This document shows positions 18,885 through 39,599 of a stretch of DNA of 40,353 nucleotides, in pieces. Made by a program: the position numbers and the translations under genes. A model generated the notes under the pieces. It searched no databases, was not told where the DNA came from, and saw nothing but the letters and a program-made list of their open reading frames with translations. Each line of letters begins with the position of its first letter. Positions within the stretch are counted from its first letter, which is position 1. This DNA is from a virus, in IMG/VR virus record IMGVR_UViG_3300006030_000044, positions 1-40,353 of that record; one strand, 5' to 3'.

Positions 18885-20753
18885 TTACCTAGCGAAAAAT
18901 GGCACAAATGTAGAAGTTGTTTTCTCAACTTTTACATCCATCATATCGAAATATACCTTGGTCATCCAATTACCAAGGACCAAACAAGAATAGGAGTCTT
19001 TTCTTGTTTTTTCTGCTCCACTCTGTTTTCTTAATTCTGGCGGCAAATCAAAGCTTTGATGCCCATTAGCTGTTGTTGTGGGCATAATAAGAGAGCATTC
19101 TGCCTTAACAAGTTCAATCATATCGGCCTGATGATCAACGAAATCAACCATTTTTGCTTCAGCGCTTTGACCATCTTCTTGATCTCGGATAAACTTAAGT
19201 CCTTTAATTGGAATATTTTTGCTTTTTTGCGTTGTAAAATCATTATCTACGGCTTCGGCTGCGAAAAGAATCTTTCTGTGATCAAAGTTAGACTGAAGAA
19301 GTTCATTAGCGTATCTTATCCAACCGCTAGTTGGAATGCGTAAGTAGCAAATTTTATTAGTGCTTTTATTATATGTATTTCTTGCTTTTCTTAACTCATC
19401 TTGGTAAGTTTCTGGAGTATCAAAGTCTGCCTCAAAAATTTTAATTTCAATTTTATTGTTTTTAAAAAGTTCGCTTTCATTTGCAGCGTTTATAAACTGC
19501 AAGCCTCCGTTATAGTCACCGCACATTGCAACAATATTAAAATGAGTGAACAAATAATGAAGATACTCAATATGCTTTTTTAAGTTTGTTCCAGAAAGCG
19601 CATAATTATGTACAAGAATTCCTTTACGAGTTGTTTTATCCAGTTTGATTACGTTCATTGCAAAATCGTCAGAAGATTCGTTTTCTGCCCAAGATGGGTC
19701 AAAGCTTAAAATATATTCTGCATTCTTTTCTCCCGCCAATTCAATAGACTGCCCCTCTCCAACTTTAATTGTACATTCATGCATTTTACTAAGTTTGAAA
19801 TAACCAGAAGAGTCGTCAACAAATTGTGAGCCGAATTCTCTTTTAAATTGTGATTCGGACATCGTTGCCTTAGCTTGCGTCAACAAACTTTCATCATATA
19901 AGCCATGAGGCGCAATATCATAAGAAAAGTGCAATATAGCTCTTGTCGCTGCGCCTTTAGCGTTTCTTTCTGGCGTGACAATCAAATCCTCGTACTGTTT
20001 GTACAGTTTATACATGTATTCAAACTGATAAGATGCAGAGGATAGAACAATAATCTTATTATTGGGCCAAGCAAACCTATCTTCCTCTTTCATTTCTCCG
20101 CGCTTAATTAGTTCAGTCTCTAAATCGTAAACTTGTTTTCTTTCGGTTGGGTTTTGCACAACGGAAAGGAACGGAATAATAACTTCATTAAAAATGCGAT
20201 CAGGCATCAGCAAGAATTCATCGATCATCATGCGGTGAAAACGAAAACCGCGCAGCTTTTCACCGTCTCCAAGTGGCAAACAAGTAATTTTACTACGCCC
20301 AATTTCCATTGTCCATTCGTCTGAGCTTTTGGAAACTTTGGTTATGCATTGTTTCAAAAATACAGCGTTAGGCTTTTCTGCAATTTCTTCTATCTTACGG
20401 AAAATCATTTTAGCCTGACGGAATGTTTTACTAACAATGCCGATATGCACACCCTGATTTAATATTGCGTCGAGAGACGCAAATACTGCACAGGTAAAGC
20501 TCTTTGAGAGTCCACGACTCCACACCATCATAGAATAATCCGTTTCAAACATGGTTTTAATTGCCATATGTTGAAATGGGAACAACTTAACGCCACAAAT
20601 AATCTCCGAAGAAAATGAAATATTTGAACGCAAGAATTTGTAGAGAAGAATTTTAGCTTCTCTTTCTTCCAAGAATCCTTTCTTTTCAAGGATCTCTTGA
20701 TTTACGTTACGGAATAAGCTTTTTCTTTTTTGGTTTCCTTCGATCCAAGCCAT
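18885..20753 (-). CDS. terL: terminase large subunit
   Basis: This 622-residue motor packages phage DNA into the prohead. An ATPase domain comes first: Walker A SRGLSKS at about residues 79-85, Walker B RMMIDEF at about 174-180 and a coupling motif IIVLSSASYQ at about 234-243. A nuclease domain follows: ILSFDPSW with Asp at about 352, MCGDYNGG with Asp at about 413, and MVDFVDHQADMIEL near the end. I chose the ATG at 20753 (MAWIEGN) over an upstream ATG that would add 14 residues without family likeness. The start lies inside the end of the nuclease gene upstream, a 52-bp overlap. Confidence 0.93.
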   Translation of the reverse strand: MAWIEGNQKRKSLFRNVNQEILEKKGFLEEREAKILLYKFLRSNISFSSEIICGVKLFPFQHMAIKTMFETDYSMMVWSRGLSKSFTCAVFASLDAILNQGVHIGIVSKTFRQAKMIFRKIEEIAEKPNAVFLKQCITKVSKSSDEWTMEIGRSKITCLPLGDGEKLRGFRFHRMMIDEFLLMPDRIFNEVIIPFLSVVQNPTERKQVYDLETELIKRGEMKEEDRFAWPNNKIIVLSSASYQFEYMYKLYKQYEDLIVTPERNAKGAATRAILHFSYDIAPHGLYDESLLTQAKATMSESQFKREFGSQFVDDSSGYFKLSKMHECTIKVGEGQSIELAGEKNAEYILSFDPSWAENESSDDFAMNVIKLDKTTRKGILVHNYALSGTNLKKHIEYLHYLFTHFNIVAMCGDYNGGLQFINAANESELFKNNKIEIKIFEADFDTPETYQDELRKARNTYNKSTNKICYLRIPTSGWIRYANELLQSNFDHRKILFAAEAVDNDFTTQKSKNIPIKGLKFIRDQEDGQSAEAKMVDFVDHQADMIELVKAECSLIMPTTTANGHQSFDLPPELRKQSGAEKTRKDSYSCLVLGNWMTKVYFDMMDVKVEKTTSTFVPFFAR

Positions 20754-21679
20754 GATGAGTTCTTGTCTATAAAATATTGAACGTCTACATCCCAAAGTGC
20801 GCTACCAATGGCAGTTAGCTTTGGAATAATAATTTCACTATTGGTTCTGTTACCCGAAAATATAAATTGGCAGCTTTTTGCAAACTCATGCTGCAATAAT
20901 CTCATATTATGATATATAAATTTTAAATTCGCCTTATGAGGAGTAAAGTCGTTGTTACTACTTATACGTTCTAAAGTAGATTCTACCACAATAAATAAAT
21001 AACATTCCATATCTTTGCATCTTTGCAGTTCACGCCTAAATCTATCCAGATTTTCACCAACTAATGTACCTTTAAAATCAGATTCTGACTTTCTATCTAC
21101 GAATGTTTTTGTATAATTTGAACCGCTAGCGGTATAATCGCCAAAATCTAACTTTACTTTCTTTTCGCTTTTAAAGCTTAAAGGCTGCTGTTCTCTGGTA
21201 TCAACAAATATATTAATATTAGAATAATCTTCGTAAAACTTTTTGGGCAAACTCTTTTTAAACATAGGCTCAATTCCTATTTCTGCACAAACATTAGAAT
21301 AAGACCCAAAATGTTTCTTGTACAAATCAACTGTCGGCATTTCACTAGTTTCCAACTCTAAATGACATGGCGCATATTTTAAATCTTTGCTTTTTATTCT
21401 ATAAGCCAGCATTTTTTTAATTTGAGCTTTAACAGTTTCTGGCGATTCTATCTCACACCATCTCAAAAGCTGATTTCTGTTTTCAAAGTCCTTTTCAAAA
21501 TAAGACTCCTTGTCCTTAAATTGCAAATAAGTGCCTGTTAGCAGGTTTTTTCTAGGATAATGTGCAAGATAATACTCATCAAGACCAATCTTGTGCTTTT
21601 TTAAATGCGCATGTAGGCTCCTTTCGGAAGGAAAGGAACTGTGGCATATTTTGCAACAGTTGGAATTGTCAGACTGCAT
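20702..21679 (-). CDS. zinc-finger ERCC4-type nuclease with homing-endonuclease-associated repeat
   Basis: This 325-residue protein has three recognisable parts. Residues 8-29 hold a C2H2 finger (C9, C12, H25, H29). Residues about 114-138 (MPTVDLYKKHFGSYSN, then VCAEIGIEP) match the small repeat associated with homing endonucleases (HNH_repeat type). Residues about 155-300 carry an ERCC4/XPF nuclease signature: VDTREQ, GDYTASG at 180-186, and VDRKSESD at 194-201. XPF-type nucleases cut branched or flap DNA. The gene overlaps terL by 52 bp and the upstream gene by 11 bp. It could be a resident repair or packaging nuclease or a free-standing homing-type enzyme; the sequence does not decide between them. 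Confidence 0.8.
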   Translation of the reverse strand: MQSDNSNCCKICHSSFPSERSLHAHLKKHKIGLDEYYLAHYPRKNLLTGTYLQFKDKESYFEKDFENRNQLLRWCEIESPETVKAQIKKMLAYRIKSKDLKYAPCHLELETSEMPTVDLYKKHFGSYSNVCAEIGIEPMFKKSLPKKFYEDYSNINIFVDTREQQPLSFKSEKKVKLDFGDYTASGSNYTKTFVDRKSESDFKGTLVGENLDRFRRELQRCKDMECYLFIVVESTLERISSNNDFTPHKANLKFIYHNMRLLQHEFAKSCQFIFSGNRTNSEIIIPKLTAIGSALWDVDVQYFIDKNSSWLGSKETKKEKAYSVT

Positions 21680-22733
21680 CTTCTAATGATATTCCTAATA
21701 TACGAGCCTTCCACTCCACCATAGTTTCCATTTTTTTACCTTCTTCAGTGACAAGTGACTTTTGCATCTCTGCAATTTTAATCATATTAGCGCGCTCTTC
21801 TTCGTCTTGAAAGAGTTGGACAATAGAAAGAATAGAGGCGTTTTCTTTTTGCCTAGATGAAATTCTTTCGCGCCTATCGCCTTGCAATTTTTTAATTAAA
21901 CTTTCCACTCTGCCTTCGCATTGGTGATACTCGCTGCTTTTAGCCTTGATGATTTCGGCCAAACGAATGCTCATTTCATTCTGTTCTTGAGTTTCCTCAA
22001 ACATTTTATTCAACTTATCTAAATGCCTTGAAGTGGTTTCTAAATTAATGATTTCTTTGCAAACGTTCATGTACAAATTAACCTCATCAGCGGTCAAATC
22101 AGGCTTGTCCCATGTCATGCGGATAAATTCTTGCTCAAATATATTCCTATCATCTTGTGATGTATAACAATTAATAATTTTTTGAAATCTTGAGTTAGAC
22201 AAATTGATGGCGAGTTTCTCAGCGCATACTTTATGGTGTCTGGTGAGCCTATCTTTATCTATTTTCTCTCCCGTGGCTTCATTAATTCTATTAATTACTC
22301 TCTCTAATGATCGGGGTGTTTGGTATTTTACAAACATCGCATCATCAGATACGGCATTATTTTCACAACCAGAATTTCTGATATGAGCGGCAACAGTTCT
22401 GTGTTCCAATCCCATTGCAGAGATTGGGCGGTCTGGATAAAGAAGCTCTGCAATTCTTAGTGCCGAGATTCCGTTAGCAGCCTGATCCTCAATGAACTGT
22501 TCTTGTTCTGGAGTGAGAGGGAGTTCGCCAACTTTTTCGTACTTAGATGTTTTGTATTGTATTTTATTAGAGGCAAGCAAAGATCTGATCGCAATTCCTT
22601 GCTTTGTTCTGCCGTCAAGATTTTCATCGTTAAAAAATTTGCGCGTAATAGTATTTAGATCTGGAAACTCCTTGGCGATTTCCATAATCCTCTTTTTGTC
22701 TTCGTCACTGAAACTTATTTTATTGTTGGCCAC
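21669..22733 (-). CDS. candidate terminase small subunit (HTH and coiled coil)
   Basis: A 354-residue helical protein. The N-terminal half has helix-turn-helix-like segments (FPDLNTITRKFFNDENLDGR; DQAANGISALRIAELLYPDR then EHRTVAAHIRNSG), suggesting DNA recognition. The C-terminal half is a charged coiled coil (HLDKLNKMFEETQEQNEMSI onward). It sits two genes before terL in the transcription order, overlapping both neighbours. DNA-binding plus coiled-coil architecture beside terL suggests the small terminase subunit, but 354 residues is long for that family and no signature motif is seen. An alternative is a phage DNA-binding regulator. Confidence 0.5.
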   Translation of the reverse strand: MANNKISFSDEDKKRIMEIAKEFPDLNTITRKFFNDENLDGRTKQGIAIRSLLASNKIQYKTSKYEKVGELPLTPEQEQFIEDQAANGISALRIAELLYPDRPISAMGLEHRTVAAHIRNSGCENNAVSDDAMFVKYQTPRSLERVINRINEATGEKIDKDRLTRHHKVCAEKLAINLSNSRFQKIINCYTSQDDRNIFEQEFIRMTWDKPDLTADEVNLYMNVCKEIINLETTSRHLDKLNKMFEETQEQNEMSIRLAEIIKAKSSEYHQCEGRVESLIKKLQGDRRERISSRQKENASILSIVQLFQDEEERANMIKIAEMQKSLVTEEGKKMETMVEWKARILGISLEDAV

Positions 22734-23430
22734 CTAAAATATCCTCGTCTTGTAAGATTTTAGTCGCTATCTGTTTAAATAACTTTTTAAGATTTTTAAT
22801 TTGTTTATAGCCAGCTTTCTTACCCTTTTCATTCGTTTTGTATCCCATTTCCATTGCAACTTTTTCCTCATCTGCGCCATCGATATAAAGCCTTGAATAA
22901 ACTTTATATTGTTTGGGCGCCAAACGATGTTTCATTTCTTCGTGAAGTCTCTGTGCGCTTGATAAAACATCAAAGTTTAAATCTTTCATCCCCTGTACAG
23001 ACTCTGAATGATTTTCTATAGAGACAGAAAGCTTCACATCATATGCACACTTTTTTGTCTTTTCCCATTTTCTATACAAGGGGCATTCGCCACATTGTTT
23101 TCCGCTTGGAGTTATTGAACAAGCTGGAGGTTCGTTGCCCATGCTGAACTTACAAGATAAACAAGGGCGAACATAATTAGAGTAATTATTGCGCAGAAGA
23201 TTCTTGATCTGGTTTACGGTAATACGCGCAATCCAAGGTTCAAGTGGGCGATCTTGCTTCCACATTTTCCATTTTTTTGAAATGTGAAAACGAATGATTT
23301 GAGCAACATCCTCATAATCCATCCAAGCAATAGCTTTAAGCTGCCAGATATATCTGTGCTTTTCTATAATCCTATCGATAACTTCTTGCTTGTCTTCGTA
23401 TTTAATCTTCTCGCGCCTTTGTGCTTCCAT
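22720..23430 (-). CDS. phage sigma factor with a cysteine-rich insert
   Basis: A 236-residue ECF-like sigma factor. Residues about 10-80 match region 2: DRIIEKHRYIWQLKAIAWMD, YEDVAQIIRFHISKKWKMWK and RPLEPWIARITVNQIKNLLR. Region 4 lies near 165-225 (RLAPKQYKVYSRLYIDGADE, then EEKVAMEMGY). Between them is a cysteine-rich insert (CLSCKF, ACSIT, QCGECPLYRKW, KKCAY) likely to bind zinc. In T4 the late-gene sigma gp55 performs this job; the family here differs and is only inferred to be functionally similar. The gene overlaps the zinc-ribbon gene upstream by 29 bp and the candidate small terminase downstream by 14 bp. It is a likely reader of the GTGTAAA element. Confidence 0.82.
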   Translation of the reverse strand: MEAQRREKIKYEDKQEVIDRIIEKHRYIWQLKAIAWMDYEDVAQIIRFHISKKWKMWKQDRPLEPWIARITVNQIKNLLRNNYSNYVRPCLSCKFSMGNEPPACSITPSGKQCGECPLYRKWEKTKKCAYDVKLSVSIENHSESVQGMKDLNFDVLSSAQRLHEEMKHRLAPKQYKVYSRLYIDGADEEKVAMEMGYKTNEKGKKAGYKQIKNLKKLFKQIATKILQDEDILGGQQ

Positions 23431-38663: not shown

Positions 38664-39599
38664 TCAAGCCTTCTTCTGAAGATTCTCTAAGACTTTGGAC
38701 CCTGCGGCGGTTAGCTTGCGGGAGCCTTCGATCTTCATGTAGCCCTTCTGGAGCAGGAAGATTTCAGCGTCACGCTGGAGCGAGGAGCGACTCATGCCAG
38801 TAATGGCCGACAGCATATTGAGCGAGCAGTCCCCACGATCTTTAAGAGCGCGCAGGATTTGAATCTCGGTGTTGTTAAGACCAGATGCGTTGATACCAAT
38901 CTTGTTGCAAAGATCAGTCCACTCTTTGACACCAAACTCTTTGATTGCTTTGGTCTCGCAGTAGAGTTCAATCTGCTTTGCACGCTGCACGGAAGAGCGA
39001 GCATTGCCACGAACTGTGGAGGCGATCTTCTCCAAGACATCACCCTTGAAAGCGATGTCAGGGAGCATCTTCTCTACGATCTTAGCAACATCCGAAACTG
39101 TGTACGGCTGGAAGTCAACAGGCGTGAGGCGATCCTTGAGCGGCGCGAACAACTTGTCAGCCTCAGTAGTCGCAAGCATAAAACTTTGCAACTTGAAGTT
39201 GAACTCGTACATACCGTCGCGCCAAGTGATCTGCTTCACATCTGCCTTCTCGGTATTGAAAGCAGAAAGTAATACAGTCATCAAGTCCTTGGGGAGCGCA
39301 TGGCATTCGTCCAATAGAACAGTAACCTCGTTGCCTTGAATCACTGGGGCGAACACTTGCTCAAAGAACACTTGCGCGTTCTTGATCGTGCCGCAGTTGA
39401 TTTCAAGGAAAGAGCGAGGCGCACCGTCCTTGGCATTAATGCCACGCGCAGTCTCCTTGGCGAATTCGGTCTTGCCCATTCCCTTCGCCCCCGTCAGCAG
39501 GAGGAAGGGAAACTTCTGGGTCTTAGAGAAGGCGTCGAGGTAAAACCCCAACTTCTTCTTGACATCTTCTTGCCCGACTAGTTCAGCAAAACGTTTCAT
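38664..39599 (-). CDS. RuvB-like AAA+ branch-migration ATPase
   Basis: A 311-residue protein. Walker A is GAKGMGKT (37-44), Walker B EVTVLLDECHALP (about 91-103), a sensor-1 region FMLATTEADKL, and an Arg-finger segment LKDRLTPV. The C-terminus, TEIQILRALKDRGDCSLNML then SAITGMSRSSLQRDAEIFLL, is a winged-helix domain like that of RuvB. RuvB drives Holliday-junction branch migration; a phage copy could assist recombination-dependent replication. Slightly shorter than bacterial RuvB. RuvA and RuvC were not seen in the window; the ERCC4-type nuclease could supply the cutting step. A clamp-loader role cannot be excluded but the winged helix favours RuvB. Confidence 0.82.
   Translation of the reverse strand: MKRFAELVGQEDVKKKLGFYLDAFSKTQKFPFLLLTGAKGMGKTEFAKETARGINAKDGAPRSFLEINCGTIKNAQVFFEQVFAPVIQGNEVTVLLDECHALPKDLMTVLLSAFNTEKADVKQITWRDGMYEFNFKLQSFMLATTEADKLFAPLKDRLTPVDFQPYTVSDVAKIVEKMLPDIAFKGDVLEKIASTVRGNARSSVQRAKQIELYCETKAIKEFGVKEWTDLCNKIGINASGLNNTEIQILRALKDRGDCSLNMLSAITGMSRSSLQRDAEIFLLQKGYMKIEGSRKLTAAGSKVLENLQKKA

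Follow-up and report, generated by a model that had tools for sequence, protein, structure and literature searches.

Why should a tailed phage keep, directly in front of its large terminase gene, a nuclease of the ERCC4/XPF type, a kind of enzyme typical of archaea and eukaryotes? The question is raised by a minus-strand gene at positions 20,702 to 21,679 of the window, which is the whole 40,353-nucleotide stretch of viral DNA analyzed here. The gene starts at an ATG and encodes a protein of 325 amino acids, for which the open reading frame list, Pfam, and PHROG together indicate a nuclease combining a zinc finger, an HTH-like region, and an ERCC4 domain. Its neighbors lie on the same strand: terL, encoding the large terminase TerL (18,885 to 20,753; 622 amino acids counted from the ATG at 20,753), and, immediately upstream, a gene of 354 amino acids (21,669 to 22,733), which overlaps the nuclease reading frame by 11 bp and which we call a putative small terminase (TerS). 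The upstream protein has no family match in Pfam or PHROG, and its proposed homology to the gene preceding terL in the phages Stahl and MaeS was unsupported by hhalign (probability of 0.3%); the TerS label is therefore given by position only. With slightly better than even confidence, we propose that the nuclease is a resident, catalytically competent endonuclease of the XPF/ERCC4 fold at the core of the terminase locus, where it most likely debranches concatemeric DNA for TerL.

Three Pfam families match the window protein at non-overlapping positions, each weakly and under its curated cut-off: zf-C2H2_6 at amino acids 8-30 (E 2e-3), HNH_repeat (PF18780) at amino acids 98-137 (E 4e-4), and ERCC4 (PF02732) at amino acids 175-246 (E 2e-3). 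The corresponding features, all on the minus strand, begin with a C2H2 zinc finger (21,590 to 21,658) whose ligands are C9, C12, H25, and H29. This is followed by a linker or helical segment without a family name (amino acids 33-77; 21,449 to 21,583), recognized by its conservation and by a model pLDDT of 93, and then by the HNH_repeat (21,269 to 21,388), which lies inside a three-helix, HTH-resembling region (amino acids 79-136). The ERCC4/XPF nuclease core, delimited by Pfam, structure, and conservation, spans amino acids 154-295 (20,795 to 21,220) and carries the motifs VD160TRE, GD181Y, and VD195RKSxxD201. For ERCC4, the window protein scores 18.4 bits and a relative in G003 scores 34.2 bits, the gathering score being 24 bits; PHROG 3490, “ERCC4-type nuclease,” matches the window protein at 3e-11. 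Among 15 relatives scanned, ERCC4 and the finger were each found in all 15 and the HNH_repeat in nine, while a set of 94 diverse N-terminal halves contained the finger in 92 cases and the repeat in 63. Because the domain matches recur across relatives, the weak Pfam matches in the window protein are not due to chance, and the combination of C2H2 finger, HNH-associated repeat, and ERCC4 domain given in the preliminary description is borne out by these profile searches.

The same searches delimit what the protein contains. Pfam detects neither an Endonuclease_7 domain (PF02945) nor an HhH match in it, and the approximately 30 residues after the core, which are partly disordered, leave no room for (HhH)2. 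A PDB sequence search with the family profile returned zinc fingers only, and a defence-system library gave no matches. In bacterial and archaeal genomes, just six weak matches appeared, each of them to the ERCC4 core and not extending into the finger half. Similarly, the finger-repeat half was not fused to another domain in any of the collected loci, nor convincingly in sequenced phages.

Conservation was assessed in 207 distinct full-length proteins that are 38-100% identical to the window protein. All four finger ligands are invariant (207/207), and D160, R162, E163, D181, R196, K197, and D201 are likewise unchanged in every protein. Position 195 is aspartate in 198 proteins and glutamate in the remaining nine, and the family conforms to the active-site pattern GDXn(E/D)RKX3D, the XPF nuclease motif being GDXnERKX3D (PMC6320978). 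The replacement of the ERK-motif glutamate by aspartate in most members is a point against the reading proposed here. Within the unnamed segment at amino acids 33-77, Y36, Y60, and F65 are invariant, and W74 is present in 204 of the proteins. The preliminary description had also considered a gene conserved as a structural partner devoid of nuclease residues; because the active-site residues never change across the 207 proteins, that case is excluded.

An AlphaFold model built from a 15-row alignment (mean pLDDT 79.5, pTM 0.66) agrees with these assignments. Residues 149-295 of the model align by VIA-align with A. pernix XPF (2bgw; Z 12.9, rmsd 2.6 over 124 residues), and about the same residues align with Hef (1j24; Z 11.8) and also match FANCM, XPF, and MUS81; Foldseek recovers the ERCC4 fold at an E-value of 8.5e-6. 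In the model, the three core motifs sit at the places of the XPF motif. The N-terminal half modelled alone reaches a pLDDT of 93 and has no significant Foldseek match, and its three-helix region bears a modest likeness to HTH proteins (best Z 5.6, to SauUSI; Z 4-5 for TetR/LuxR types). As modelled, the nuclease is a protein of the XPF/ERCC4 fold with a conserved active site and finger.

How constant is the place of this gene beside terL? Relatives were drawn from IMG/VR contigs, and each locus was scored with three profiles, one built for each of the nuclease, terL, and the upstream gene. The resulting clade is a large group of uncultured tailed phages, with records of up to 203 kb. Wherever a relative includes the sequence upstream of terL, the nuclease is located there, adjacent to terL in 353 loci and one gene apart in 10; these loci include some contigs more than once, and 225 are distinct by terL-start sequence. 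A comparison of terL regions with and without the gene, as suggested in the preliminary description, found no empty site among clade members with enough upstream sequence. The only nuclease-less records with terL and enough upstream sequence belong to two distant phages, MaeS and Stahl. Their terL shows about 25% identity and is directly preceded by a gene not recognizably related to the 354-amino-acid upstream gene.

The nuclease is a single-copy gene in all 16 long records (69-203 kb), with no copies elsewhere in the genome. Pairwise tree distances correlate at 0.79 between nuclease and terL, 0.81 between nuclease and upstream gene, and 0.80 between terL and upstream gene, values that none of 999 permutations reached. 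The dN/dS of the nuclease is 0.04-0.12, compared with 0.02-0.03 for terL, and its frame is internally broken in only two loci (L283 and L335), a further one, L384, being split at a contig edge. Taken together, the constant position, single copy, congruent distances, low dN/dS, and few broken frames constitute the record of a core gene: the nuclease is a fixed member of the terminase locus, vertically inherited and under strong purifying selection.

The overlap with terL is less constant. The 52 bp shared by the nuclease 3′ end and the terL start (20,702 to 20,753, minus strand, counted from the terL ATG at 20,753) had been reported correctly in the preliminary description, but a long overlap is restricted to the clade of the window. 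Among the 225 distinct terL starts, the two genes overlap by at least 40 bp in 76 and by 1-39 bp in 111, and the rest have a gap; as only these 76 reach 40 bp, the long overlap is a clade feature. It encodes the low-confidence C-terminal tail of the nuclease, modelled with a pLDDT below 50.

Several further features were noted at these loci. In the window, a gene two positions upstream of the nuclease (22,720 to 23,430) encodes a sigma-70 region 2-like protein according to Pfam, which suggests bacterial hosts. The nuclease of L335 (2436-3545) and that of L384 (4833-5417) are each divided between two reading frames in the vicinity of residues 250-275; about 120 additional bases are present and the profile ranges overlap, which may reflect an insertion, a duplication, or a frameshift. 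In one subclade, a gene for a beta-helix-like protein of approximately 225-240 amino acids separates the nuclease from the upstream gene (L114, 5282-6001; L144, 5327-6001; L133, 5321-6001), and an SNase/thermonuclease-like gene stands between the same two genes in L113 (4019-4387). In L245 (2893-3981), L256 (2946-4004), and L263 (2781-4004), a gene for a subtilisin-like serine protease, with what looks like a membrane segment at its C-terminus, stands between nuclease and terL; in some relatives, the nuclease is followed by a 121-amino-acid open reading frame or a HAD phosphatase. In some relatives, TerL itself carries an intein-like in-frame insertion at or next to its P-loop, at two different points: the insertion in L078 (5903-9043), also found in L079, is LAGLIDADG-like by eye, and that in L133 (6915-10019) matches intein-containing proteins in NCBIfam.

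Of the roles offered in the preliminary description, the trimming of branched DNA before packaging best fits the data, and from these data we infer both the likely substrate and the packaging role. The nuclease would be produced from the late packaging operon along with the putative TerS and TerL. Its N-terminal C2H2 finger and HTH-like HNH_repeat may stand in, as the DNA-binding part, for the (HhH)2 of cellular XPF/Mus81, and its C-terminal ERCC4 domain is predicted to cut at branch points such as flaps and Y or X junctions; for this it would probably form a dimer and use a divalent metal. By stripping branches off concatemeric, recombining DNA, the enzyme would keep TerL from stalling. In T4, a comparable task falls to endonuclease VII (gp49), which binds to the portal and releases packaging that has stalled at Y- and X-DNA (PMC9958956). 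In the TerL of this clade, the acidic residues D351, D412, and D545 (A5 reference numbering), putatively assigned to its nuclease domain, are conserved; because TerL retains them, a debranching helper fits better than a replacement cutter. Against the debranching role, proximity to terL indicates co-expression, not a function in packaging, and the sequence appears to lack (HhH)2, the usual junction binder of XPF and Mus81.

A candidate partner is encoded at 38,664 to 39,599 on the minus strand, in the form of a full-length RuvB-like AAA+ ATPase with matches to NCBIfam RuvB (E 2e-26), RuvB in the PDB (E 2e-15), and the RuvB_C winged helix in Pfam. PHROG labels this protein a clamp loader; we prefer the RuvB identity because of the RuvB_C match. 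The gene is neither adjacent to nor linked with that of the nuclease, and a RuvB homologue occurs in 8 of the 16 long records, all four of the largest among them. The two proteins may act together, as the preliminary description had suggested, in which case junctions cut by the nuclease could be migrated or opened by the ATPase. The listed Pfam families for RuvC, RusA, RecU, and Hjc, which gave matches in control genomes, gave none in these 16 long and possibly fragmentary records. Endonuclease_7 produced two matches there, both below the cut-off, and T7 endonuclease I produced none in a search run without a positive control.

Other roles for the same protein were considered. The alternative that survives best, although we regard it as unlikely, is a site-specific packaging nuclease, whose finger and HTH region would bind a cos- or pac-like sequence at which the ERCC4 domain cuts or stimulates cutting by TerL. 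The fixed place between the putative TerS and TerL and the invariable retention of two candidate sequence-reading modules are consistent with it, as is the promotion of cos cleavage by HK97 gp74 (PMC9410871); the XPF fold, however, is typically structure-specific, and TerL keeps putative nuclease-domain acidic residues of its own. We find it somewhat harder still to credit a general nuclease of recombination or repair, engaged in replication-fork or flap processing, for which adjacency to terL would merely reflect late co-expression. The XPF/Mus81/Hef family does work in repair and fork restart (PMC6320978), and the presence of a RuvB homologue speaks for a recombination pathway, but the link to terL persists while surrounding genes come and go, a pattern that co-expression alone explains less well. 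Finally, the homing nuclease of the preliminary description, whether free-standing or a recently domesticated past invader of the terS-terL junction, is, like a nuclease directed against co-infecting relatives, very improbable, and a present-day mobile element is strongly disfavoured: the HNH_repeat is associated with homing endonucleases, Stahl and MaeS carry a gene directly before terL without the nuclease, and inteins mark this terL region as a target for selfish elements, but the lack of empty sites in the clade, the single copy, the trees congruent with those of terL and the upstream gene, and the low dN/dS leave this reading unsupported.

On the debranching role that we prefer, the nuclease family connects XPF-type DNA processing with genome packaging. 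ERCC4 family matches were confined to archaea among 14 control genomes, and here a nuclease of this archaeal and eukaryotic type belongs to the fixed core genes of a clade of tailed phages. Our searches of open-access text found no description of a phage ERCC4 nuclease tied to the terminase. According to a survey of jumbo phages, several are still without a recognized Holliday junction resolvase, and the RuvC of phages has no RuvB coupled to it (PMC7824862); the family described here is a concrete, testable candidate for a missing enzyme of this kind. Much more tentatively, it may constitute a class of phage branched-DNA resolvase that has not been described before: an XPF nuclease with finger and HTH swapped in for the junction-binding domain, dedicated to the packaging motor and aided by RuvB, that would fill the missing Holliday junction resolvase role in a large-phage clade.

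Comparison with known systems places the nuclease near several of them. With archaeal XPF (A. pernix), Hef, and XPF/MUS81 (PF02732) it has the fold and a GDXnERKX3D-type motif in common; in contrast, the cellular XPF/MUS81 enzymes carry (HhH)2 where the phage protein has an N-terminal C2H2 finger and HNH_repeat, their ERK motif mostly reads with D for E in the phage family, and the phage gene sits in a terminase locus. Among PHROG 3490 and the halovirus ERCC4-type nucleases, HRTV-8 gp87, for example, shares the ERCC4 core (32% identity over amino acids 153-243) but, unlike the window gene, is a standalone open reading frame of 154 amino acids without finger or repeat and with no terminase annotated nearby. 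With T4 endonuclease VII, the proposed likeness is debranching for packaging, the folds being unrelated. HNH packaging nucleases of the HK97 gp74 type are likewise tied to the terminase by their gene, and stimulation of TerL, as described for the HNH protein gp74 (PMC9410871), may be a further likeness; their fold is HNH, whereas the phage nuclease has the ERCC4 fold and no HNH catalytic domain. Finally, homing endonucleases with the PF18780 repeat share the HNH_repeat module but differ in catalytic fold, and the phage nuclease, in contrast to them, is fixed and vertically inherited.
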